A stretch of 64,000 bases of DNA from NCBI RefSeq assembly GCF_025685685.1, contig NZ_JAGSYH010000003.1, positions 558,001 through 622,000 of the forward strand, written 5' to 3'. A program made the translations under genes and the position numbers. Below are positions 1,065-45,327 of this stretch, in pieces; position 1 is the stretch's first letter, and each line of letters begins with the position of its first letter. The DNA comes from Acidicapsa dinghuensis (GTDB lineage Bacteria; Acidobacteriota; Terriglobia; Terriglobales; Acidobacteriaceae). The notes under the pieces were generated by a model. That model ran no database searches and had not been told where the DNA came from. It saw only the letters and a list, made by a program, of their open reading frames with translations.

Positions 1065-3545
1065 CTACTGGCAGGCTTCGCAACTGCCGGGGTTTTCGAG
1101 GGAGCAGGCTATGGCCTGGCTGGCTGTGTACTGCGGTGCGGGCGGCGCTTCCGCGGCCGGACGGGCCGCATGTGCGACGGTTGTCTTGGAGATCTTGGTT
1201 GCGGGACGCGAGCGCAGGTAGTAGGTGGTCTTGATGCCGCGCTTCCAGGCGTACATGTACATGCTGCTCAGGCGGCCGATGTTGGGCGACTCCGAGAAGA
1301 GATTGAGCGACTGGCTCTGGTCCAGGTACGCTCCGCGATCGGCGGCCATGTCGATGAGCGAGCGCATGGGAATCTCCCAGACGGTGCGGTAGATCAATTT
1401 CAGTTCGGCGGGGATCTCGGCGATGGACTGGATCGATCCCTCGGCGAGCTTGATGCGTGTGCGCATCTCTTCCGACCACAGCCCGAGCCCCTTGAGCTCG
1501 TTCACAAGGTAGCGGTTGATCTGCATGAATTCGCCGGAGAGCGTCTCGCGCTTGAAGAGATTGGAGATCTGGGGCTCGATGCACTCGTAGCAGCCGACGA
1601 TGGAGGCGATGGTTGCTGTCGGCGCGATGGCGATGAGTAGCGAGTTGCGCAGGCCGTGCTTGGCGATGCGAGCTTTCAGCGCGTCCCAGCGTGCGGCGTC
1701 CGTCGGCTTCACACCCCAGAGATCGAACTGCAGCTCGCCCTTCGCAGCGCGAGTTTCACCGAAGGCTTCATGCGGACCGCTGTGCTCGGCCAGCTCGCAC
1801 GATGCGGAGAGTGCGTGGAAGTAAATCTCTTCCTGAATGCGGGCCGAGAGCTCGCGAGCTTCCGGGGAATCGAAGGCCCAGCGGAGTTGGAAGAAGACAT
1901 CCTGCAGGCCCATGAGGCCGAGGCCGACGGGACGCCAGCGCGAGTTCGATCCGGCTGCCTGCGGGATGGGATAGAAGTTGATGTCTATGACGCGGTCGAG
2001 CATGGGCACGGCGTGGCGCACGGTGGCGGCGAGTTTGTCGAAGTCGAACTTGCCATCCGTAATGTGGCGGCCAAGATTGATGGAGCCGAGATTGCAGACG
2101 GCGGTTTCGGCCTTTGAAGTGACCTCGGTGATCTCGGTGCAGAGATTGGAGAGATGCACGACGTTGCCGGGATTGCCGATCTCGTTTGTGCCGGTCTGGT
2201 TGCACTTGATGTTGCAGGCGTCTTTGAAGACCATCCAGCCGTTGCCGGTTTCGGCGAGTGTGCGCATCATGCGCGCGTAGAGATCGCGAGCCTTGATCTG
2301 GCGCTTGTAAATCTTCTTCGCTTCGGCTTCTTCATAGGCAGTCTGGAAGGCTGGACCGTAAAGATCGGTCAGGTTGGGCACATCTTTGGGATCGAAGAGC
2401 GACCACTGGCCGTCGGCTTCGACGCGCTGCATGAAGAGGTCGGGAATCCAGTTGGCGAGATTGAGATTGTAGGTGCGACGGGCCTGATCGCCGGTGTTAT
2501 CGCGCATTTCGAGGAAGCTCTCGACGTCGGCGTGCCACGGCTCGAGATAGACGCAGCATGCGCCTTTGCGCTTGCCGCCCTGGTTGACGGCGGCGACGCT
2601 CGCATCGAGGGTGCGGAGCCAGGGAACGATGCCATTGGACAATCCGTTGGTGGCGCGGATGAGGGAGCCTTCGCTGCGGATGCGATGGAAGGCGAGGCCG
2701 ATGCCTCCGGAGAACTTCGACAGCAGCGCGACCTGCTTGTAGGTGTCGTAGATGGAGTCGAGCGAGTCGGACGGCGAATCGAGTAGGTAGCAGCTCGACA
2801 TCTGGCTGTGCTTGGTGCCGCTGTTGAAGAGGGTCGGCGAGCTTGGCAGATAGTCGTGTGAAGCGAGCAGGCGATAAAAGTTGACGGCCTCGTTTACGGT
2901 TGTGGACAACCCTGACGAAACGCGGAGGAAGAAGTATTGCGGCGTCTCGATGACCTGGCGGGTGATGGGGTGGCGCAGCAGGTAACGGTCGTAGACGGTG
3001 CGCAGGCCGAAGTACTCGAAGCTGTCGGAGTAGCGGTCGTCGATGGCGGAGTTGAGCTTGCGCGCGTTGGCGGCGACGAACTCGGCTGCATCCTTGGAAA
3101 CGACGCCTTCGCGCGCGCCGAGCTCGACGGACTGTGAGAAGGAATAGATGTTCTGCCCGGCGACTTCTTTGGCGATGGTTTCGAGCAGGAGACGCGCCGC
3201 GAGGCGGGAGTATTCCGGCTCCTCGGCGATGAGCGAGGCGGCGGTCTGGATGGAGATGGAGTCGAGCTCGCGGGTGGAGGCACCGTTGTAGAGGCCGCCG
3301 ATGGTCTTGCTGGCTACGCGGATGGCGTCGACGTGGGGCAGGCCAGCGCAGCAGCGCTCGACGGCGCGGACGATCTTGTTGACGTCGACAGGCTCGTGGG
3401 CTCCGGAGCGCTTGCGCACCTGCATCTGCGGCGCGGCTTCGGCGGGTGGAAAGTTGGGATCGAGCTCGGTAAGGCTGGCCTGCTGGGCGGCTGGCCGGTC
3501 GGGCTCGAAAGCAGAATCGAAAGCGGGTTGCAATGTTGCGGCCAT
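1065..3545 (-). CDS. nrdA: Class Ia ribonucleotide reductase alpha subunit
   Basis: Catalytic subunit that reduces ribonucleoside diphosphates to deoxyribonucleotides in the cytoplasm. The start at 3545 (MAATLQP...) is preferred over 3587 because GGAAAGGA lies just upstream. An ATP-cone occupies roughly residues 40-135. Expected active-site residues are visible: a Cys in the MSSCYLL segment (about residue 252), the NLCTE motif (about 467-471), the Cys in AVCNLGSINL (about 484), the TTYYL tyrosine pair near the C-terminus, and C-terminal redox cysteines in CEACQ. Length (826 aa) is normal. It is first in the nrdA-nrdB order and lies behind a cobalamin riboswitch, so it is probably repressed when B12 is abundant. 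Confidence 0.96.
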   Translation of the reverse strand: MAATLQPAFDSAFEPDRPAAQQASLTELDPNFPPAEAAPQMQVRKRSGAHEPVDVNKIVRAVERCCAGLPHVDAIRVASKTIGGLYNGASTRELDSISIQTAASLIAEEPEYSRLAARLLLETIAKEVAGQNIYSFSQSVELGAREGVVSKDAAEFVAANARKLNSAIDDRYSDSFEYFGLRTVYDRYLLRHPITRQVIETPQYFFLRVSSGLSTTVNEAVNFYRLLASHDYLPSSPTLFNSGTKHSQMSSCYLLDSPSDSLDSIYDTYKQVALLSKFSGGIGLAFHRIRSEGSLIRATNGLSNGIVPWLRTLDASVAAVNQGGKRKGACCVYLEPWHADVESFLEMRDNTGDQARRTYNLNLANWIPDLFMQRVEADGQWSLFDPKDVPNLTDLYGPAFQTAYEEAEAKKIYKRQIKARDLYARMMRTLAETGNGWMVFKDACNIKCNQTGTNEIGNPGNVVHLSNLCTEITEVTSKAETAVCNLGSINLGRHITDGKFDFDKLAATVRHAVPMLDRVIDINFYPIPQAAGSNSRWRPVGLGLMGLQDVFFQLRWAFDSPEARELSARIQEEIYFHALSASCELAEHSGPHEAFGETRAAKGELQFDLWGVKPTDAARWDALKARIAKHGLRNSLLIAIAPTATIASIVGCYECIEPQISNLFKRETLSGEFMQINRYLVNELKGLGLWSEEMRTRIKLAEGSIQSIAEIPAELKLIYRTVWEIPMRSLIDMAADRGAYLDQSQSLNLFSESPNIGRLSSMYMYAWKRGIKTTYYLRSRPATKISKTTVAHAARPAAEAPPAPQYTASQAIACSLENPGSCEACQ

Positions 3546-3689
3546 TGGGGAGGGGGTCCTTTCCGGTACAGGTAGAGCAAAAATCATCAGACCGAAAGGA
3601 AACGAAGACGGACCAGTGCCTGGAAAAACCAGCCAGAAGCCGCCCGGCCTTCCCCTCGGAGGCGGTTGCGTATCTCGCGTTCGCCTGGA

Positions 3690-3905
3690 ACGCGTCTCCC
3701 GGCAGGTCTTCGGACTTGCAGGCTTGCCTACTTGCTCCAGCTTCCCAGCTCTTGCCGACCGTTGGGAGGATCGGGCGTTCGCCAGTGCTTTTGACCTTTG
3801 CAGGCCTGGAGGGTTCGTTCCTGTTTACCGCTGCGGGGCAGTTCCGGAGTTGCACCGGATTCCCTTTTCAGGTGAATCGGAGGATTCACCACCGAAAGCA
3901 GTTTC
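3690..3905 (-). promoter_or_regulatory. Cobalamin (B12) riboswitch upstream of nrdA
   Basis: Read on the minus strand, the region contains the conserved aptamer blocks in order: GGTGAATC and AAAGGGAATCCGGTGCAA, then AACTGCCCCGCAGCGGTAA, a central variable part with CACTGG and GGGAAG, and finally the B12 box AGTCCGAAGACCTGCC at about 3698-3722. A GC-rich hairpin follows between the aptamer and the nrdA start and may be the expression platform. Boundaries are approximate. B12 riboswitches ahead of B12-independent class I RNR genes are known in other bacteria, where they silence the oxygen-dependent enzyme when a B12-dependent class II enzyme can work. Confidence 0.93.
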
Positions 3906-4060
3906 GACTATATCGCGGGTCTGGTGGCTGGTCAACGTCTATATGTTGGGGTGGGTGTGGAAATGGGTACAAGTGGGAAATGGGAGTGTGGAGTGTGAAA
4001 AGCGGAGGAAGCGGGGGCATGGGCCTCCCGCAATAGAATTCGAGAATCGAGGATATATCC

Positions 4061-4834
4061 ATGCTTCGCGATTTCTTGGAGTCATTGCGGCCAGACAAGG
4101 ACCTTCTGTTATCGGAGATTTCAAAGCATATTAGTGACGATATGCTCGCGAAGATTGCGCTAGCTGACTATGGCCAAGACCAAGAGCAGCATTTCGCAGC
4201 ACTTCGATTGCTTCGAGATAAGCACATCTTTGCTGAACCGATGCATTGGTACCCCTGCGAGGTTCTAGAACTGGTTCGCTATTCCGAGCCGGACGGCAGC
4301 CCGGAGCCGGAGCGGGAAAAGGAACATTGGATTCGCGCATTCTCGAGCGCAGCACTACTTCGTGCGATGCAATCACCTTGGAACTACAGCGCCGATGGGG
4401 CGAGCCCGAGTCTCAGCTTGATCCAGTTAATCGGCAGTCTTGAGGCGCTGCCGATTAATTTCAGTGGAAGCGCGGTTCGCTTTCTTGCGTGGATGATGCT
4501 GCATCCTAATCTTGAACAAGGAGACGAGCAGCCGATTTACTACGGCATCGCCTTGTTGTGGCTCGCACTACGCATCCCTGATCTTCCCTTCGATCAGGAC
4601 CTTTTAGAGCTTGCGGAATGGGTTGTCCGGCGAGAAGCCGAGATTCGCGAAGGATGCCCTTGGGCGTTTGATCGATGGCTGCTTGGCATTGCACATGATC
4701 CACCGCCGTCTAAGTGGGAGCCGCTTGGCACAAGGCTCGCCAATCTGGATCTCAGCGGTCGATCAAGGGAATTACGAAATTGGATAAAGCTCATTGGACT
4801 GGAACTGGCTGGACAGTCGTTTTCAGGGGCATGA
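4061..4834 (+). CDS. Protein of unknown function (257 aa)
   Basis: I do not recognise this protein. It is acidic, Leu/Trp-rich and apparently all-helical, with no signal peptide, no clear membrane span and no obvious catalytic motif. Trp-rich stretches (HWYPCEVLELVRY, IALLWLALRIPDLPF) and the helical pattern recall immunity or helical-repeat proteins, but that is only an impression. It starts about 150 bp beyond the B12 riboswitch and is transcribed away from nrdA, so it is not part of the RNR operon. The last few codons run into a palindromic repeat that recurs at 5581-5635, so the C-terminus may have been rewritten by repeat insertion. Confidence 0.6.
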   Translation: MLRDFLESLRPDKDLLLSEISKHISDDMLAKIALADYGQDQEQHFAALRLLRDKHIFAEPMHWYPCEVLELVRYSEPDGSPEPEREKEHWIRAFSSAALLRAMQSPWNYSADGASPSLSLIQLIGSLEALPINFSGSAVRFLAWMMLHPNLEQGDEQPIYYGIALLWLALRIPDLPFDQDLLELAEWVVRREAEIREGCPWAFDRWLLGIAHDPPPSKWEPLGTRLANLDLSGRSRELRNWIKLIGLELAGQSFSGA

Positions 4835-4873
4835 ATGCCCCTGCTCCCTCCCGGTTCGCGCTTTGCGCGAATA
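4819..4873. repeat. Palindromic intergenic repeat, copy 1
   Basis: This segment holds the palindrome CAGGGGCATGAATGCCCCTG followed by CTCCCTCCCGGTTCGCGC and a TTGCGCGAA half-palindrome. It is nearly identical to 5581-5635. It overlaps the last codons of the gene ending at 4834. Confidence 0.75.
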
Positions 4874-4882
4874 TGGCTCGTC

Positions 4883-5509
4883 TTAAGAGCGATGAGGCTG
4901 CGCTGAAACTGGAGAATCTGTGGAGCTCAACAACTTCAATAGATCAGGCTGCTTTATCCCGTCGGTTTGGACGACGTGCCAGCCGTTCACATCTTGCCAT
5001 TGCGCGTACCAATACCGGTACGAGTTGCCATCGGGTATGTAGGCCATTAAGCTGCCTCTCTTGTCCTTTTCCGATTCACCGCTGTACCAAACCAACAGCG
5101 TGCCGGGAGCAATTTCTGAGGCCTTCCTTCTTAAGGCATGCCTGCTTCGGATCTTTTGATGGATTGGCGATCCTGCGTCTACTTCCTCGTAATACGGTGC
5201 GGTGAATCGACGCTGTGAAACAACTCTGTTCGGAACGAACGGCGGAATTCTCGTCCCGCTTCCCCGATAGAACGCAGCGACATGCGGTATCGGCAGGCCA
5301 GAAAATCCTAGCCATTTTTGCCCGAACCAGTTGTCGACCTTGATCACGATCAGGCTTTCCGGCTTCTCATTGCGAAGCAGTCCCTCGATTACTTCGTTGA
5401 CCGCAGCCACGAATCCCACAGCATCGTTTTCTGACGCTTCAATGCGCATGTGAACAAATATCCCATGAATGGAGAGTTGTTGAGTATCTCTGCGCGAAAA
5501 AGCAATCAT
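4883..5509 (-). CDS. Protein of unknown function (208 aa)
   Basis: No family is recognised. The frame could start at 5509 or at an internal Met at 5449 (MRIEASEN). The first codons of the longer form fall inside a 16-bp sequence that is repeated at 5832-5847, so the true N-terminus is doubtful. The body contains a mixed alpha/beta segment with conserved-looking aromatic positions (LLVWYSGES, YRYWYAQWQDVNGWHVVQTDG). No signal peptide or membrane span is obvious. It is convergent with the 4061-4834 gene, with about 50 bp of repeat-derived sequence between them. Confidence 0.5.
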   Translation of the reverse strand: MIAFSRRDTQQLSIHGIFVHMRIEASENDAVGFVAAVNEVIEGLLRNEKPESLIVIKVDNWFGQKWLGFSGLPIPHVAAFYRGSGTRIPPFVPNRVVSQRRFTAPYYEEVDAGSPIHQKIRSRHALRRKASEIAPGTLLVWYSGESEKDKRGSLMAYIPDGNSYRYWYAQWQDVNGWHVVQTDGIKQPDLLKLLSSTDSPVSAQPHRS

Positions 5510-5847
5510 TTGGATTCCGCTAGATCGGTGGTGACTACAAGGAAGGCCCGCGGCTGAAGCCGCTTTCTTTTCCGGGCTGATTTTTCAGGGGCATGAATGC
5601 CCCTGCTCCCTCCGGTTCGCGCTTTCGCGCGAATGGGGTTTGTTGGTGGAACCGCCTGGGCGGAATCCCACTCATTCGGCAGAGTGCGCCGAATGAATGG
5701 GGTACCCCGGTGATGGTGATTCGGGCGAAAAGCAGAGACAACAGCAGATCCCCTTCGGGGATGACAAACAAAAAAGCAAGGACAAAGGCAATGGACACTC
5801 CAGTGGCCGTTAAACTCGGTGGCCATTGAACATCTCTGCGCGAAAAA
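5486..5847. repeat. Mosaic of tandem palindromes bounded by a 16-bp direct repeat
   Basis: The stretch 5510-5903 has no convincing gene. ATCTCTGCGCGAAAAA occurs at 5486-5501 and again at 5832-5847. Between them lie at least five hairpin-forming segments: GCGGCTGAAGCCGC (5550-5563), the CAGGGGCAT palindrome (about 5586-5605), TTCGCGC/GCGCGAA (about 5615-5635), a long stem around TCATTCGGC/GCCGAATGA (about 5667-5700), and ATCCCCTTCGGGGAT (about 5748-5762). The second and third also occur at 4819-4873. This resembles composite REP/BIME arrays. Long open frames across it are by-products of the composition. Confidence 0.7.
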
Positions 5848-5903
5848 ACGTATGGCTTTGCATCCCGATAGACCGCTGGTTGCGGAATAGAGAGTAGAAG
5901 CGC

Positions 5904-6440
5904 ATGAGAGAGCCGAGATGGCAGCCGGATTTCGAAGAGTTAGTGGAGGAGCACCAGTCGATGGTCTTCTCGCTGGCCTGGCGAATAACCGGCGACCGGG
6001 GACTGGCGGAGGAACTGGCGCAGGATGTGCTGCTGGAACTGGACCGGAACCTGGGCAAGATGAAGTCGGCCGAGCATGCGCGCTGGTGGCTGCGGCAGGT
6101 GACGATGCATCGCTGTGCGGATGCATTGCGAAGGCGCAGGACGCGGACCACCAGTCTTGGCACCGATGTATGGGTGGAGCTTGAGGAACGGCACGTGTTG
6201 ATCGAGCCATTCGATGAGGATGGTCCATTGAGCGCGCGGATTGAGGAGTTGCTTGCGGGTTTGCCGGAGTCGCAGAGGGCAGCACTGGTGCTGCGATACC
6301 AGGAAGAGATGACGCCGGAGGAGATTGCAGCGATGGTGAAGTCTCCGTTGGCGACGGTGAAAAGCCAGTTGCAGCGCGGGTTGAAGCTGTTGCGGGCGAG
6401 AGCCGGGGAAACCCTGAAGGAGTATGTGCGTGGAGCATAG
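5904..6440 (+). CDS. ECF-type RNA polymerase sigma factor
   Basis: A 178-residue sigma-70 family protein of ECF size. Region 2 spans about residues 10-80 (EELVEEHQSMVFSLAWRITGD...AEELAQDVLLELDRN, then ARWWLRQVTMHRCADALRRRR). Region 4 spans about 112-165 (LAGLPESQRAALVLRYQEEMTPEEIAAM with the helix-turn-helix LATVKSQLQRGLKLLRAR). It redirects RNA polymerase to its own promoters. The next three genes follow in the same direction with overlaps or very short gaps, so it heads an operon with a membrane protein (likely anti-sigma) and two exported proteins. Confidence 0.93.
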   Translation: MREPRWQPDFEELVEEHQSMVFSLAWRITGDRGLAEELAQDVLLELDRNLGKMKSAEHARWWLRQVTMHRCADALRRRRTRTTSLGTDVWVELEERHVLIEPFDEDGPLSARIEELLAGLPESQRAALVLRYQEEMTPEEIAAMVKSPLATVKSQLQRGLKLLRARAGETLKEYVRGA

Positions 6441-6444
6441 CAGG

Positions 6445-6810
6445 ATGGACCACGAGAACGAGCAGGAGCTGGCTGAGTTTGAGCAGCGGCTGCGGATGGC
6501 GATGCAGCGGCGTGAGGCTCCGATGGGGCTGAAGGCGCGGGTGCTGGCGGAGTCAAGGGCGCGGCGGCAGCACAGGTTTGCCGAGGGCGGCGGCTGGATG
6601 TTGCAGCGGATTGCGGCTTCGGCGGTGCTGGCGGCGATTGCGAGCGGAATTGTGGTCTACCACCAGATGGAAGTGCGGTCGGTGGAGCGGCAGAAGGGTG
6701 AAGAAGCGAAGGCACAGGTGATGCTGGCGCTTCGGATCACGAATCGGGCGCTCGACCGGATTAATGACCGGATTAACGACAAATCAAGCTCCAGCGAAGA
6801 GAATCGCTGA
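6445..6810 (+). CDS. Small membrane protein, likely anti-sigma partner
   Basis: A short single-span protein. Residues 1-45 form a charged helical region (LAEFEQRLRMAMQRREAPMGLKARVLAESRARR), then one transmembrane helix (about residues 50-70, IAASAVLAAIASGIVVY), then a charged tail that may be coiled. No zinc-finger HxxxCxxC motif is visible. The start at 6445 is preferred; an upstream ATG at 6424 overlaps the sigma gene by 17 bp but its SD-like sequence lies too close. Position directly after an ECF sigma gene suggests it holds that sigma factor at the membrane. This is inferred from context, not homology. Confidence 0.75.
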   Translation: MDHENEQELAEFEQRLRMAMQRREAPMGLKARVLAESRARRQHRFAEGGGWMLQRIAASAVLAAIASGIVVYHQMEVRSVERQKGEEAKAQVMLALRITNRALDRINDRINDKSSSSEENR

Positions 6811-6835
6811 TCGGCGGCGGGAGAAAGAGGACGGG

Positions 6836-7423
6836 ATGAAAGCGACGAGAGTGTGGGCGGGAATGTTGGCGGTTGGTATGGGGATTGCGCTGGTGATGGC
6901 GGCGCGCGCGCAGGATGAGCTGCCGATGCCTTCGCCGGCAGAGAAGGTGTTGGCGGACAAGGCGAAGCATGTGACAGAGGTGACGCTGGATAAGAGCATG
7001 CTGGCCTTTGCAGCGAAGTTCATTGACAAGGATGAGGGTGACGATAAGGACTCGCAGGCCGTGAAGGACATGATCCGAAACCTGAAGGGCGTGTACGTGC
7101 GCGACTACGAGTTCGATAAGGACAATTCGTATTCTGCGGCTGACCTGGCCGCGTTGCGCAAGTACTTTGAGGGTTCGGAGTGGTCTCCGATGGTGCATGA
7201 ACGGACGAAGGGCGAGCCTGAAGGTACGGATGTGTACGTGAAGCTGGTCAATGGCCAGATGCAGGGTTTGTATGTGCTGGATGCCGAGCCGAGGGAGCTT
7301 TCGCTGGTGCTGATTCTGGGGCCGATCGATATCGATAAGGTTGCGGAGTTGAGCGGGAACTTTGGGATTCCGAAGGAAGCGGGCAAGCGCATCAAGAAGG
7401 CTGAGAAGGAGGCCGGCAAATGA
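6836..7423 (+). CDS. Exported DUF4252-like protein
   Basis: About 195 residues with a signal peptide (residues 1-25, hydrophobic core then ARA-Q). The body (KAKHVTEVTLDKSMLAFAAKFI...IRNLKGVYVRDYEFDKDNSY...LVNGQMQGLYVLDAEPRELSLVLILGPIDIDKVAELSG) matches the general pattern of DUF4252 proteins. The start at 6836 is used because the signal peptide begins there. It overlaps the next gene by 4 bp (ATGA). It is likely exported and could be an output or sensory partner of the sigma/anti-sigma pair; the biochemical role is unknown. Confidence 0.8.
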   Translation: MKATRVWAGMLAVGMGIALVMAARAQDELPMPSPAEKVLADKAKHVTEVTLDKSMLAFAAKFIDKDEGDDKDSQAVKDMIRNLKGVYVRDYEFDKDNSYSAADLAALRKYFEGSEWSPMVHERTKGEPEGTDVYVKLVNGQMQGLYVLDAEPRELSLVLILGPIDIDKVAELSGNFGIPKEAGKRIKKAEKEAGK

Positions 7424-7998
7424 AGCAGGCATGGTATCCGGTGGCGGTGGGAATGGGCATAGCTGCCGTGATGACTCCGGCGATCATGCTGGCGATGGGC
7501 GGCGGTTTTGGCGGGGGCGGGTTCGATCCGGTGGTACATGGCATTGAGTCGCGCTATCACGTGCATGCGAACAAGATTCCGTTTATGGGGCTGATCAGCG
7601 GCATTGCACATGTTGCTTCGCATGGCGGCGTGGGCGGGCTGCATGTGGCGGAGATCGAACACTTCGACGAAGATGTGGACGGCGCGGAGCTGACGTCGAT
7701 TGTGGAGCAGCATGTAGGCAAGGGCTGGGGACGGATGATTCGCGAGACGAGCAAGGACGGAAGCGAGCAGACGCTGATCTACACGAAACCCCAGGGCGAC
7801 CGGATGGCGATGCTGATTGTGGATCTGGATGGGCATGAGATGGATGTGGTGCAGGTGTCGGTTGATCCGAATCATCTGGATGACGACATGTCGCCGTTCC
7901 ATCACAAGCATCATCAGTACACGGGTGGGTCGGATAATCAGGATCACTCGCCGAAGGATGCGGACAAGAGCGATTCGGCGGATGAGGGTGCTGAGTAG
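7420..7998 (+). CDS. Exported His-rich protein of the same operon
   Basis: 192 residues, start overlapping the previous stop. It begins with a signal-like hydrophobic segment (AVGMGIAAVMTPAIMLAMGGG), followed by a Gly-rich linker and a domain with the same general organisation as the preceding DUF4252-like protein (VAEIEHFDEDVDGAEL...MIRETSKDGSEQTLIYTKPQGDRMAMLIVDLDGHEMDVVQVSVDP). The C-terminal 40 residues are acidic and His-rich (FHHKHHQY...), which could bind metal. It is probably a diverged duplicate of its neighbour acting in the cell envelope. No specific function is recognised. Confidence 0.7.
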   Translation: MKQAWYPVAVGMGIAAVMTPAIMLAMGGGFGGGGFDPVVHGIESRYHVHANKIPFMGLISGIAHVASHGGVGGLHVAEIEHFDEDVDGAELTSIVEQHVGKGWGRMIRETSKDGSEQTLIYTKPQGDRMAMLIVDLDGHEMDVVQVSVDPNHLDDDMSPFHHKHHQYTGGSDNQDHSPKDADKSDSADEGAE

Positions 7999-40270: not shown

Positions 40271-41299
40271 TCAATTCTGAAGAATCTTGAAAGCTGCTGT
40301 TTTCGGCTCGGGAGCGGTTCTAGAGAACTTCTCCCGTACTGCCCGCAAAGACGTTCCGACGCGGTCAGATACATGGAGCAGATGGCCAGCGGTGAGGGGT
40401 CCGAGCACACGATGGTGCCCGACTGCGGCCAGCACCATGGAGGCGATGCAGCCGCACTCGGCGCAGTTTGGATTCCCTCCGAACTGGCAGGGGGTGATCC
40501 TGGTTTGCAGATCCGCGGAAATGGTGCGCGTTGTTTTGGCGAAGATGCACTCTTCCGGGCTTTGGGGAGGAGCGAGAAATTCCCGGAGGAGCGGTTCCGG
40601 CATCTCCAGGATCGGATATTGCACACGCAGACGCATCAGATCCTGCACGACGAATGCGCGCTGTTCGGGGGTCAATATTTCCTCTCCGGTTGCTCCACGC
40701 TGCGGGGTGAAAAAGCTGAACCAGACCCTATGGATCTCAGGACGCGCGCTCCAGAAGCGAAGGAACTCCTCCAGGTAGCCAGGGCGTCCCGCGATATTAC
40801 CCGTGATGGTCGAGTGGATCGTTACTTTCGCGAAAGCGATGTTCTTGAGGATGCGATCGTACGTGGCTGGTTTACGCCGTTCATCATGCTCCGGCTGCAG
40901 ACCGTCGATAGACACCACAACGTTCAGGCGTTTGAATCGGCCCCACTCCGCCGGTATCTGCCGAAAGGCGCTGGTGACGATCTGCGTATACACCCGACGG
41001 GCATCGAGCTCCGGCAGAAGTATTTCCAACTCGCGGTAGCGGACCAGAGGATCACCGCCGACAAGAGAGACGTGGAGCGGTTTTTCCCGATCAACGATCT
41101 CCAGAATCTTCGCTACCAGCTCTGCTCCTTTGAAATCGGAGAGCTCACGCAGCCCGGTTTCGCTTCCCAAATGAGCTGCGTCGAACGCATAACAACCAGG
41201 GCAACGCAACGGGCACTCTTTGGTGATCTCGATGGAAAGAGAAGGTTTACGTCCTATAAGAATCGCTGCCCATGCCTGTAAGACTTCAGATGTCTTCAT
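40271..41299 (-). CDS. Radical SAM protein with C-terminal cysteine cluster
   Basis: 342 residues. The N-terminal CPLRCPGC provides the CxxxCxxC cysteines that bind the SAM-cleaving iron-sulfur cluster. VSLVGGDPLVR is the GGE-like SAM motif, and NVVVSIDGLQPEHDERR and related strands follow the radical SAM barrel. The C-terminus has further Cys residues (CIFAKTTRTISADLQTRITPCQFG...CAECGC) like the SPASM/twitch auxiliary cluster. The substrate cannot be read from sequence; there is no peptide-precursor gene next to it. Divergent from the cold-shock gene. Confidence 0.88.
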   Translation of the reverse strand: MKTSEVLQAWAAILIGRKPSLSIEITKECPLRCPGCYAFDAAHLGSETGLRELSDFKGAELVAKILEIVDREKPLHVSLVGGDPLVRYRELEILLPELDARRVYTQIVTSAFRQIPAEWGRFKRLNVVVSIDGLQPEHDERRKPATYDRILKNIAFAKVTIHSTITGNIAGRPGYLEEFLRFWSARPEIHRVWFSFFTPQRGATGEEILTPEQRAFVVQDLMRLRVQYPILEMPEPLLREFLAPPQSPEECIFAKTTRTISADLQTRITPCQFGGNPNCAECGCIASMVLAAVGHHRVLGPLTAGHLLHVSDRVGTSLRAVREKFSRTAPEPKTAAFKILQN

Positions 41300-42615: not shown

Positions 42616-44034
42616 TTACTTCGCTGCTGGTTCTATGGGAGCGGAGCCGCCGGCTATGAGACTGCTCAGGCTGCCGGCCAACTGCGGTTGCACCATGACG
42701 AAAAACATGCCGCCGCGCCCGTTCTGGCTGCTGGTGCAGTTGCCGGTGAGCGAGCCTTGCTGGTTCATGTCGCCGAAGATGTTGTAGGCCGTGTCGCCAG
42801 CGGTCGAAACGCCGATCTTGGCATGGTTGTGATTGCCACCTTCACCGCCGGTGAGTGCAAAGGTCTTGCCGTCCCATGTGCCGGTGGTGGCGATATCGAC
42901 TGGTCCCGGTTTCGGCAGCGACGGACTCCAGCATCCAACAGGACTGTTGGCATCGGTCGAGTCCATGGCGGGGTTAGCCCACCAGTTGGCCGTGCGCAAC
43001 GGCACGCTGCCGAGCAGCGCTGAGACAAGCTGCCATGGCGGCACATTCAGTTTCGATGGCTTAGAGATCAGCTCCACGCCCGAGGAGAGCGTGGTGTTGA
43101 AATAGGTGGTGCTCGCCGAGAGCTTGCCTAGCTGCGAGGCGAGTTGCTGAATATCCGATGGGCCGCCGTTGTGAACGACCTGCTGATTGGTTGGATCGGT
43201 GACGACGCTGGCATTGTTGAGTCCGCGCAGCACCGCGACCACATCGTTCTTATTGAGCCGCAGGGCAAAGAAATGCTGGCTCACTTCCACATCGTCATCC
43301 TTGACGCAGCCGAGTGTGTTGCCGTCGCTCTTGCGCGGAGACTGCGCGTTACCTGAGGCGGGCCAGGATGGCGTGGAGACCTGCATGATCATGCCGTCGC
43401 CGTCATCGTTCCAGGCGAGCATGCCTTTGGAGTGTCCCCACGGCGCGTCGCAGTTGCCACTGGAGCAGCCCTTGATCTGCGGGTCGGCATAAAACTGATC
43501 GTTCCAGACGACGTAGTTGAACTTGCCGTTGTAGACCTCATCAAACGTCGCGCCGATGGGATCGTTGACCGTGTCGCCTGCGCAGCCTGCCCCCTGTTTG
43601 AGCGTTGGCTCTTCACTGCTGGCGGAAACATACTGCTGGCCCCATCCGGATTTGTAGGGCTGCACTGTGCCGCCGAAGGGACAGGCACGATCGACACCGG
43701 AGCCGCAGCCGGGAAAGACAGATGAGTTGAGCTTGAAGACAAACCACCAGTCGACGGGATGGCCTTTCTGAATCATCGGATACGGCGCAGTACATGCGGG
43801 TGAATCCGATGTACCGGCGCCGCAATGCGTGTTGGAGAGCGTGATCGACGGCACGAAAGGCAACGTCGCGTTGGCCTGGATTGTGGCCGCAGGCGGCGCT
43901 TGCGTGGGCGCAGGCGCAAGAGCGCTATGCGCAAGCGCAACGGCAAGCGGCAGAACAGGCGCGATGGTGCGAACAGCGCTGCCGGGCTTCTTCGCCGGTG
44001 GATCGGGCGTCGCCGATGTTTTACGTGTGGTCAT
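42616..44034 (-). CDS. DNase II-family endonuclease
   Basis: About 472 residues. The start at 44034 (MTTRKTSA) has GGAG 7 bp upstream. After a proline/alanine-rich N-terminus with a hydrophobic stretch (signal or anchor) comes a DNase II domain: HPVDWWFVFKLNSS, then PWGHSKGMLAWNDDGDGMIMQVSTPSWPASGN with the first HxK (H-S-K), later GGNHNHAKIG with the second HxK (H-A-K), and FGDMNQQGSLTGNCTSSQNGRGGMFFVM near the end. These match the two catalytic HxK motifs and the GDMN-RGGG region of animal DNase II. Cys-rich, so probably extracytoplasmic. It would cleave DNA without metal ions at acid pH. Last gene of a three-gene operon. Confidence 0.87.
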   Translation of the reverse strand: MTTRKTSATPDPPAKKPGSAVRTIAPVLPLAVALAHSALAPAPTQAPPAATIQANATLPFVPSITLSNTHCGAGTSDSPACTAPYPMIQKGHPVDWWFVFKLNSSVFPGCGSGVDRACPFGGTVQPYKSGWGQQYVSASSEEPTLKQGAGCAGDTVNDPIGATFDEVYNGKFNYVVWNDQFYADPQIKGCSSGNCDAPWGHSKGMLAWNDDGDGMIMQVSTPSWPASGNAQSPRKSDGNTLGCVKDDDVEVSQHFFALRLNKNDVVAVLRGLNNASVVTDPTNQQVVHNGGPSDIQQLASQLGKLSASTTYFNTTLSSGVELISKPSKLNVPPWQLVSALLGSVPLRTANWWANPAMDSTDANSPVGCWSPSLPKPGPVDIATTGTWDGKTFALTGGEGGNHNHAKIGVSTAGDTAYNIFGDMNQQGSLTGNCTSSQNGRGGMFFVMVQPQLAGSLSSLIAGGSAPIEPAAK

Positions 44035-44088
44035 GCTGACACTCCGCATCGAATGGCAAGACTTGCCCGGCTACGATGGACAGCGAAA

Positions 44089-44745
44089 CTATTCACCGGA
44101 GGCATTGCTGCCGCCTGTCGGATTCGTACTGGCATCAGCAATGGTGGCGGCAGCGACACTGACGTCTTTTGCGACATTGGCATCGACGGCAGCGTCTTTT
44201 GCGACAGCGGCACTGACCTGGGAGGCGACAGCGGCGCCGACGGTGGTTGCCTGCGCGACGCGAGCAGTCGTTGCCGCTTGTCCGGCGGCAGCTGCAGCCT
44301 GCTGGGCGGCTGCAGCGTGGGACTGAGCAGTGGCTGCGGCCTGCTCGGCGCGGATAACATCTTCTGGAGTCGGGTCAGGCTCGAGGGTTTGCGGCTGGCT
44401 GTAGGAAATGCCTTTGCCGACAGCATAGGTGGTCGCGCTGATGCCCAGGAGTGTGAGCACTCCTTCTGGGATATCCGGCAATGCGCCGTTCTTCATCACC
44501 AGCTCAAAGACGCTGATGGCGATAACGAAAGTAAAGAGAAGCAACTGGAAGCGCGACATGCTTGCCTGGCCGTTAACCTCGTTGAGCAGATGCGTCAGGT
44601 CAATCTGCCGCTTATGAGGCGGCGCCCACCAGATAAGAACGATGATGGAAAGAGCGAGCATGCCGAGAAAGAAACACGCCACATATCCAGCTAAGCTCGT
44701 AGGATCCCAATTGATTGTGCCCAATGCTGTTACTGCCTGCCCCAT
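44089..44745 (-). CDS. Membrane protein with Ala-rich tail, paralogue of the upstream gene
   Basis: About 218 residues; the start at 44745 (MGQAVTALG) has AGGAGG. Three spans: about 20-41, 72-92 and 100-118. The core L-x-x-LL...SMSRFQLLLFTFVIA...ALPDIPEGVLTLLGISATTYAVGKGIS closely parallels the protein encoded at 44756-45088. The C-terminal 100 residues are mostly Ala, Gln, Val and Thr and likely form an extended helix or coil. Middle gene of the DNase II operon. Function unknown. Confidence 0.75.
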   Translation of the reverse strand: MGQAVTALGTINWDPTSLAGYVACFFLGMLALSIIVLIWWAPPHKRQIDLTHLLNEVNGQASMSRFQLLLFTFVIAISVFELVMKNGALPDIPEGVLTLLGISATTYAVGKGISYSQPQTLEPDPTPEDVIRAEQAAATAQSHAAAAQQAAAAAGQAATTARVAQATTVGAAVASQVSAAVAKDAAVDANVAKDVSVAAATIADASTNPTGGSNASGE

Positions 44746-44755
44746 AACTTTCCTC

Positions 44756-45088
44756 CTAATTCCCTTTCCGGTTGCTCCACATCGACCAAGCTTTTTCGAG
44801 CACGTAGATACTGCTGCTGCCTCCAAGAACATAAAGCCAGTTGGCGCTTACGTCGGGCAGCTTTCCATCAGTGGACTTCGCAACCTCTGCGAGATATGAG
44901 CCGCACGCCGTGATGGTGGCCAACAACAGCTGCACTCGACCCGGACTGAGATTTCCCCCGGAGTCCTTATGCATCAGAAGGCCTGAGAGCGGGATGCGGC
45001 GCGTGAGTATCTTCCACGCGATGGTTGCCATCATCAGAAAGAGAAAGCCTTGCATCTCCAGGATCAATAAACGTGACGGAGTCATGCG
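44756..45088 (-). CDS. Small three-span membrane protein, first gene of the DNase II operon
   Basis: 110 residues; the start at 45088 (MTPSRLLILE) has GAAAGGAG. Hydrophobic spans at about 6-28, 48-68 and 82-100. The stretch LSGLLMHKDSGGNLSPGRVQLLLATITACGSYLAEV...KLPDVSANWLYVLGGSSSIYVLEKAWS repeats the pattern of the next protein: S-x-x-R-x-QLLL-x-T, LPD, L-G-x-S-x-x-x-Y-x-x-x-K. The stop overlaps the ribosome site of the next gene. No known family is recognised. Confidence 0.75.
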   Translation of the reverse strand, partial: RMTPSRLLILEMQGFLFLMMATIAWKILTRRIPLSGLLMHKDSGGNLSPGRVQLLLATITACGSYLAEVAKSTDGKLPDVSANWLYVLGGSSSIYVLEKAWSMWSNRKGN

Positions 45089-45327
45089 GGCTCCTTTCTG
45101 CATTCAAAGAAGGTGTTGACGGGAGATCACGCCGGATGCTGGGCTCCGGCGAATAGATCTGGATCGAGGAAGGATCAGTATGCTGCGCGGCGCACCGTGC
45201 GTCAAGGCTTTTATTTGTCGCACTTTAACCGCAGATAGCGCTGGAGGCGAAGACAATCGCGCTGCAATCCATTGCAAACGCGCGACGGGTTCTCGATGAG
45301 TTGCCGCGCGAAGCTATAGATGAGGGT

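Follow-up and report, generated by a model that had tools for sequence, protein, structure and literature searches.

A bacterial DNase II in an operon with two paralogous membrane proteins whose cargo has been exchanged during evolution

The window, a stretch of 64,000 nucleotides from Acidicapsa dinghuensis (contig NZ_JAGSYH010000003.1, positions 558,001 to 622,000), contains three co-directional genes at 42616-45088 on the minus strand, in the order M2, M1, and DNase II. The genes and their features are as follows.

42616..44034, minus strand: DNase II family nuclease (PF03265, AlphaFold2 model, Foldseek match to 5i3e, start site)
44089..44745, minus strand: M1, a membrane protein with three predicted transmembrane helices and a long, alanine-rich C-terminal helix (AlphaFold2 model)
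44756..45085, minus strand: M2, a membrane protein with three predicted transmembrane helices and a paralogue of M1 (hhalign against the M1 family)
45091..45097, minus strand: ribosome site of M2, AAAGGAG (sequence)
44752..44757, minus strand: ribosome site of M1, AGGAGG, which overlaps the stop codon of M2 (sequence)
43426..43434, minus strand: first HxK motif, H206-S-K208 (sequence; H and K invariant in alignment A4)
42817..42825, minus strand: second HxK motif, H409-A-K411 (sequence; invariant in alignment A4)
43915..43980, minus strand: N-terminal hydrophobic segment SAVRTIAPVLPLAVALAHSALA, a putative docking or export element (leave-one-out profile score)

M2 and M1 are 10 bp apart, 39-54 bp separate M1 from the nuclease gene, and both membrane protein genes have strong ribosome sites. 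The nuclease frame is open up to an ATG at 44049, and GGAG precedes a second ATG at 44034. Because of its better ribosome site, the ATG at 44034 is the more likely start. A first-pass annotation of this DNA had described a tight three-gene operon, and the operon is confirmed, with the start of the nuclease gene shifted from 44049 to 44034. Further along the same strand is a gene for a radical SAM protein (40271-41299, minus strand; PF04055, E 1.5e-12), which nothing ties to the operon.

DNase II is a metal-independent acid endonuclease that yields 3'-phosphate ends and is placed in the wider phospholipase D superfamily. To our knowledge, it has been studied almost solely as a lysosomal nuclease of animals; a structure of DNase II from Burkholderia thailandensis was reportedly published in 2017. 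The nuclease of the window belongs to this family and its catalytic motifs are intact. PF03265 matches residues 94-465 (E 7.3e-16; 58.7 bits against a curated cut-off of 23), in agreement with the family assignment made at first reading. That reading also held that both HxK motifs are kept along with the GDMN-type and RGG motifs, which lie at residues 426-429 and 445-447, and the alignment bears this out: H206, K208, H409, K411, D427, N429, R445, G446, and G447 are invariant across the 23 rows of A4 (the window, 21 of 31 DNase II loci, and one distant relative). Excerpts of two papers describe animal DNase II as cofactor-free and acid-active with two PLD domains that carry one HxK each (PMC9208542), and as digesting RNA too (PMC11430429).

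Structure comparisons point in the same direction. A profile search of the PDB finds the B. thailandensis DNase II (5i3e/5unb) at E 1.3e-25; a single-sequence phmmer search of the PDB with the window nuclease gave no match. The AlphaFold2 model (pLDDT 76.4, pTM 0.81, with low confidence over most of the first 60 residues) has 5i3e as its best Foldseek match (E 3.6e-13, TM 0.67 by target length, 17% identity, rmsd 8.9), and the window nuclease is predicted to have the pseudodimeric DNase II fold.

DNase II is sparse in the genomes searched, as had been supposed for bacteria: PF03265 occurs in four of 396 Acidobacteriota genomes and in none of 14 control genomes. The genome of the window encodes a single PF03265 protein, and that of another of the four genomes (G286, locus L002) is distant, at 24% identity to the window protein. 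We assembled 36 DNase II loci of the window's clade (31 from a search for relatives plus the window, L068, L069, L104, and L105). M genes adjoin the nuclease gene in 12 and are absent beside 24, a count in which L012 and L015 are covered for <300 bp downstream. The enzyme thus does not need the membrane platform that we propose below.

Various other genes lie near DNase II, or are fused to it, elsewhere. RNase T2 is fused to DNase II in one locus and is its neighbor in another. In L012 (4110-6176; a Desulfuromonadales MAG), one frame encodes both (PF00445, E 1.3e-21; PF03265, E 6.2e-20). In L017 (2931-9536; a Syntrophaceae MAG), RNase T2, a sub-cut-off GH19, DNase II, and a patatin phospholipase are clustered, together with a protein judged by eye to be caspase-like. 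Genes for Tle1-like phospholipases (PF09994) adjoin DNase II in L010, L014, and L018, and a patatin fragment, recognized by its BLAST cluster, is near DNase II in L014. A histidine acid phosphatase is near DNase II in L025 according to Pfam; a similar neighbor read by eye in L011 received no support from Pfam, and L025 alone is counted. In L021 (4959-9681; Candidatus Scalindua sp.), a DNase II gene whose product shows no obvious signal peptide is followed by RebB-type genes. The RebB "killing trait" family PF11747 matches 6651-6884 at 70 bits and 7111-7530 at 23.9 bits (cut-off 24). By eye, 6349-6582 is also RebB-like and a patatin-like protein is present; a collagen-like protein is encoded upstream. 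A nuclease linked to R-bodies is possible in this locus. Finally, the L104 locus (genome G595) has a gene for a GH25 muramidase (3255-3890; PF01183, E 3.6e-31) that stops 47 bp short of the M2 frame and has no obvious signal peptide. RNase T2, phospholipases, phosphatase, RebB, and muramidase fit a set of enzymes that dismantle cells or polymers, and both feeding and attack are compatible with them.

Variation is also seen within the nuclease frames. An SH3_3 domain is fused before DNase II in L016 (4563-6161; 28.2 bits, cut-off 27). DNase II is split into two overlapping frames in L036 (4932-6148) and L105 (5617-7027), and these broken frames are decayed genes or sequencing errors.

M1 and M2 are paralogous, as was suspected from their sequences at the outset: hhalign aligns the two families at 97% probability (E 9e-12). 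Searches of Pfam, NCBIfam, and PADLOC are empty for both proteins of the window. Among PHROGs, nothing matches M2, and M1 has weak matches to tail fibers that involve its alanine-rich tail only (E 0.04-0.08). A Pfam scan of 12 aligned M1 and M2 proteins with E up to 10 returned 17 families, each in at most two members (best E 0.0016). The low-confidence AlphaFold2 model of M1 (pTM 0.34) has helices at 15-40, 63-86, 94-116, and 127-206, three long enough to span a membrane followed by an extended one at the C-terminus, and has no credible match among PDB structures. The loop between the first and second transmembrane helices contains on average 2.6 (M1) and 3.7 (M2) arginine plus lysine residues, the loop between the second and third 0.7 and 0.6, and the part after the third 2.2 and 3.8, counted over 14 rows of M1 and 12 rows of M2 (M2 of L004 and L107 were dropped and that of L109 is misplaced). 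By the positive-inside rule, these counts fit a predicted topology with the N-terminus outside and the C-terminus inside. In alignment A7, the polar or small residues R65, Q67, S103, Y107, and K111, located in or near the membrane, are invariant. For a motor like those of ExbB, TolQ, or ZorA, the sole sign is weak, sub-significant PADLOC matching in one relative (M1 of L024, ZorA-like, E 0.011). The defense models of PADLOC match none of the three window proteins.

The membrane pair is strictly linked to one of two genes. A profile of M1 and M2 has matches in 16 of 396 phylum genomes, and a profile of M1 has matches in 19 of 300 family genomes. Over both searches, 12 genomes have a strong match (E <1e-20) to an M1 encoded separately from M2, hereafter split. 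In all 12, M2 and M1 are followed, in this order, by a third gene, which encodes DNase II in six (G000, G249, G470, G555, G595, and G629) and a different protein, cargo B, in the other six (G075, G084, G508, G452, G526, and G484). Because DNase-linked pairs were used to build the M1 profile, it favors close relatives, and still half of what it retrieved has cargo B. With L019 and L024 added, all 14 loci have DNase II or cargo B, at a distance from M1 of -50 to 87 bp. It had been asked at first reading whether the three genes occur together in other genomes; the trio of M2, M1, and DNase II recurs in seven loci besides the window, so the arrangement is not due to chance. Granulicella paludicola has an operon of this type, L028, whose core falls inside stretch L103 of G555, a genome of the same family as that of the window. 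Co-occurrence at the level of the phylum has a Fisher p of 2.3e-4, to which we give little weight because the test includes the genome of the window, by which the case was chosen.

Cargo B is a putative exported protein of about 270-330 residues that is present in 18 of 396 phylum genomes and absent from the genome of the window. It has 27 matches in the phylum. Flanks were viewed for 20, of which four have M genes (two split and two fused into one chain) and 16 do not. We considered that cargo B is a hidden DNase II and rejected this at the sensitivity of hhalign (probability 0.06%). Likeness to HU-alpha was dismissed as well (PDB profile search, E 0.79-0.88, not credible). Pfam has no match for cargo B of L066, L067, L106, L109, and L171, and for that of L162 it has sub-cut-off matches to SH3_3 and DUF4431 only. 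The SH3_3 match lies before cargo B (3913-4914; 25.8 bits, just below the cut-off of 27), and SH3_3 may be a second accessory common to DNase II and cargo B. In L108, a member of the animal haem peroxidase family (5587-7278; PF03098, 54 bits) is encoded immediately after cargo B.

The distribution of the two cargos on phylogenetic trees shows that the cargo of the membrane pair has been exchanged during evolution. Trees of M1 and M2 (14 rows each), which have long branches and few supported forks, show two and three changes of cargo, respectively, and at least two changes are forced by supported branches on both trees. A mobile element or phage origin was rejected on the following searches: viral contigs have no relatives of cargo B, DNase II, or M1, and by tblastn, phages have no relatives of DNase II, and plasmids have none of DNase II or of the one cargo B searched.

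The N-terminus of the nuclease correlates with the presence of the pair. All eight pair-linked DNases start with basic residues followed by a hydrophobic segment of the type RTIxPxxPLAxAL. Five match this pattern exactly or almost exactly, and those of L004, L104, and L105 match it more loosely. In a leave-one-out profile test of this segment, the eight score 6.4-33.1 and 17 unpaired DNases score 2.2 or less. The two nucleases nearest to that of the window in A4 (L007 and L009; 65% and 64% identity) have neither pair nor segment, so the segment tracks the pair and not the closeness of the nuclease. Among the six pair-linked cargo B proteins, that of L067 carries the DNase segment almost unchanged (33.0) and that of L106 carries it partly (8.7). 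The other four are without clear resemblance, with scores (-7.6 to -2.8) within the control range, and have a proline-hydrophobic core visible by eye. Where cargo B is encoded next to a fused M protein, its four representatives have scores of -10.1 to -6.5. Shared docking is clear for one swap (L067) and suggestive for a second (L106). In the window nuclease, a basic N-terminus and one hydrophobic segment can be read from the sequence, and the segment may be cleaved off as a signal peptide rather than serve as an anchor.

Relatives of the pair also exist as single chains. The weaker matches to the M profiles have two M repeats in one protein, several with a preceding extracytoplasmic domain. 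Cargo B adjoins four (L070, L071, L110, and L111) of 12 acidobacterial loci of this type that were viewed. In L070, the fused M gene and cargo B are adjoined by a gene for a protein of the same BLAST cluster as the Tle1-like phospholipases. In Betaproteobacteria, a fused M gene is 24-30 bp after DNase II in four of five DNase II loci (L029, L030, L034, and L037; not L014). Across 27 genomes with DNase II and no split pair, 10 have an M-type protein anywhere, and four of these are the betaproteobacterial genomes in which the genes are adjacent. In the family of Variovorax, 10 of 299 genomes have an M-type protein (E up to 1e-10). It is beside DNase II in the Variovorax genome that seeded the search and in none of the nine others. 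M-type proteins are thus mostly apart from DNase II, indicating that the M family is broader than the nuclease system. The fused M proteins of L192-L200, from the Variovorax family, have neither DNase II nor cargo B nearby, and L194 and L196 have upstream of them a gene judged by eye to be lipoprotein-like.

Strict linkage, change of cargo, and the N-terminal segment together lead us to propose that M2 and M1 are an inner-membrane platform that holds an exported enzyme at its periplasmic face, a reading to which we give an even chance. M2 and M1 would each span the inner membrane three times, with N-terminus outside and C-terminus inside, and would assemble into a two-subunit platform. The N-terminal hydrophobic segment would export DNase II, and by the same segment the enzyme would be kept at the periplasmic face. 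So tethered, the nuclease is predicted to cut nucleic acid without metal ions and optimally at acid pH. Its purpose would be local digestion of external or incoming nucleic acid, either for nutrition or, perhaps, to break down DNA as it enters. A bolder version, which we put forward tentatively and hold to be less probable, is that M2 and M1 represent the first described docking system with exchangeable cargo, one that recruits unrelated exported proteins by an N-terminal transmembrane code, exists in fused form elsewhere, and has the acid nuclease as one of its cargos.

Three other explanations have to be weighed. The nuclease could simply be secreted for scavenging of nutrients, with the membrane pair a neighbor or a helper in folding or export. 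The pair is missing beside most DNases of the family, RNase T2 is fused to or lies near relatives (L012 and L017), a histidine acid phosphatase is near another (L025), and secreted nucleases of Acidobacteriota are interpreted as nutritional in an excerpt of PMC11495043. Linkage in 12 of 12 genomes, a fixed gene order, and a segment specific to the pair nevertheless exceed what mere neighborhood predicts, and we regard this explanation as rather unlikely. We consider it unlikely that the pair is a channel or translocator, either importing released oligonucleotides and phosphate or letting the cargo or other proteins out in the manner of a holin, with the cargo adjoining for functional reasons. 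The invariant residues of A7, which are polar or small and lie within or close to the membrane, are consistent with a channel, and so is the GH25 muramidase just upstream of M2 in G595, but this muramidase is beside M2 in one locus only. Moreover, the window proteins resemble no transporter or holin above curated cut-offs, and a transporter for one class of product leaves the unrelated second cargo unexplained.

The remaining explanation is that the nuclease is a weapon and that the membrane pair guards its producer. The pair is co-located with a nuclease whose catalytic residues are intact, and other DNase II loci are near Tle1-like phospholipase (L010, L014, and L018) or the R-body protein RebB (L021). 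However, the same pair accompanies an unrelated cargo in six of 12 genomes and its cargo has changed, an exchange that specific immunity would not tolerate. In addition, M genes are absent beside 24 of the 36 DNase II loci, and the pair comes before the nuclease in the operon. We therefore disfavor dedicated immunity and find the weapon hypothesis improbable. The first-pass annotation had suggested that the membrane proteins anchor, secrete, or neutralize the nuclease. Anchoring, as in the platform, is the best supported of these roles; neutralization is disfavored, since the pair also occurs with unrelated cargo. That annotation did not include the exchangeable cargo, the common N-terminal segment, or the fused M-type proteins beside betaproteobacterial DNase II.

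The operon joins a bacterial relative of DNase II to dedicated membrane partners that are outside any family model, and the same partners serve an unrelated exported protein. Searches of an open-licence library turned up no description of an operon around a bacterial DNase II, nor any of the M membrane family. These observations offer a testable idea, that bacteria may hold exported enzymes at the membrane by means of a general platform and a short N-terminal code. They also open a way to learn what the M family and cargo B do and which role acid nucleases play in soil bacteria.

Known systems resemble the parts of this operon to different degrees. The fused M-type proteins, for which we found no family name, are like M1 and M2 in having two sets of the elements S..R.Q, P, and LLGIS..Y, and the profiles match (97% probability, E 1.1e-11). 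They differ in being one chain rather than two, in that many have an N-terminal extracytoplasmic domain, and in their location mostly away from DNase II. PLD3, Tdp1, and Nuc of the phospholipase D superfamily share the HxK chemistry of DNase II, but matches of the window nuclease to the folds of PLD3 and Tdp1 are weak and below significance (Foldseek, E 0.03-0.3). The DNase II of B. thailandensis (PDB 5i3e and 5unb) is similar to the window nuclease in its profile match over the length of the family, both HxK motifs, and the same predicted fold. The window nuclease stands apart from it by the membrane pair encoded in its operon and by its unusual N-terminal segment. The nuclease is a further member of a known family, and its operon with the membrane pair is a new variant.
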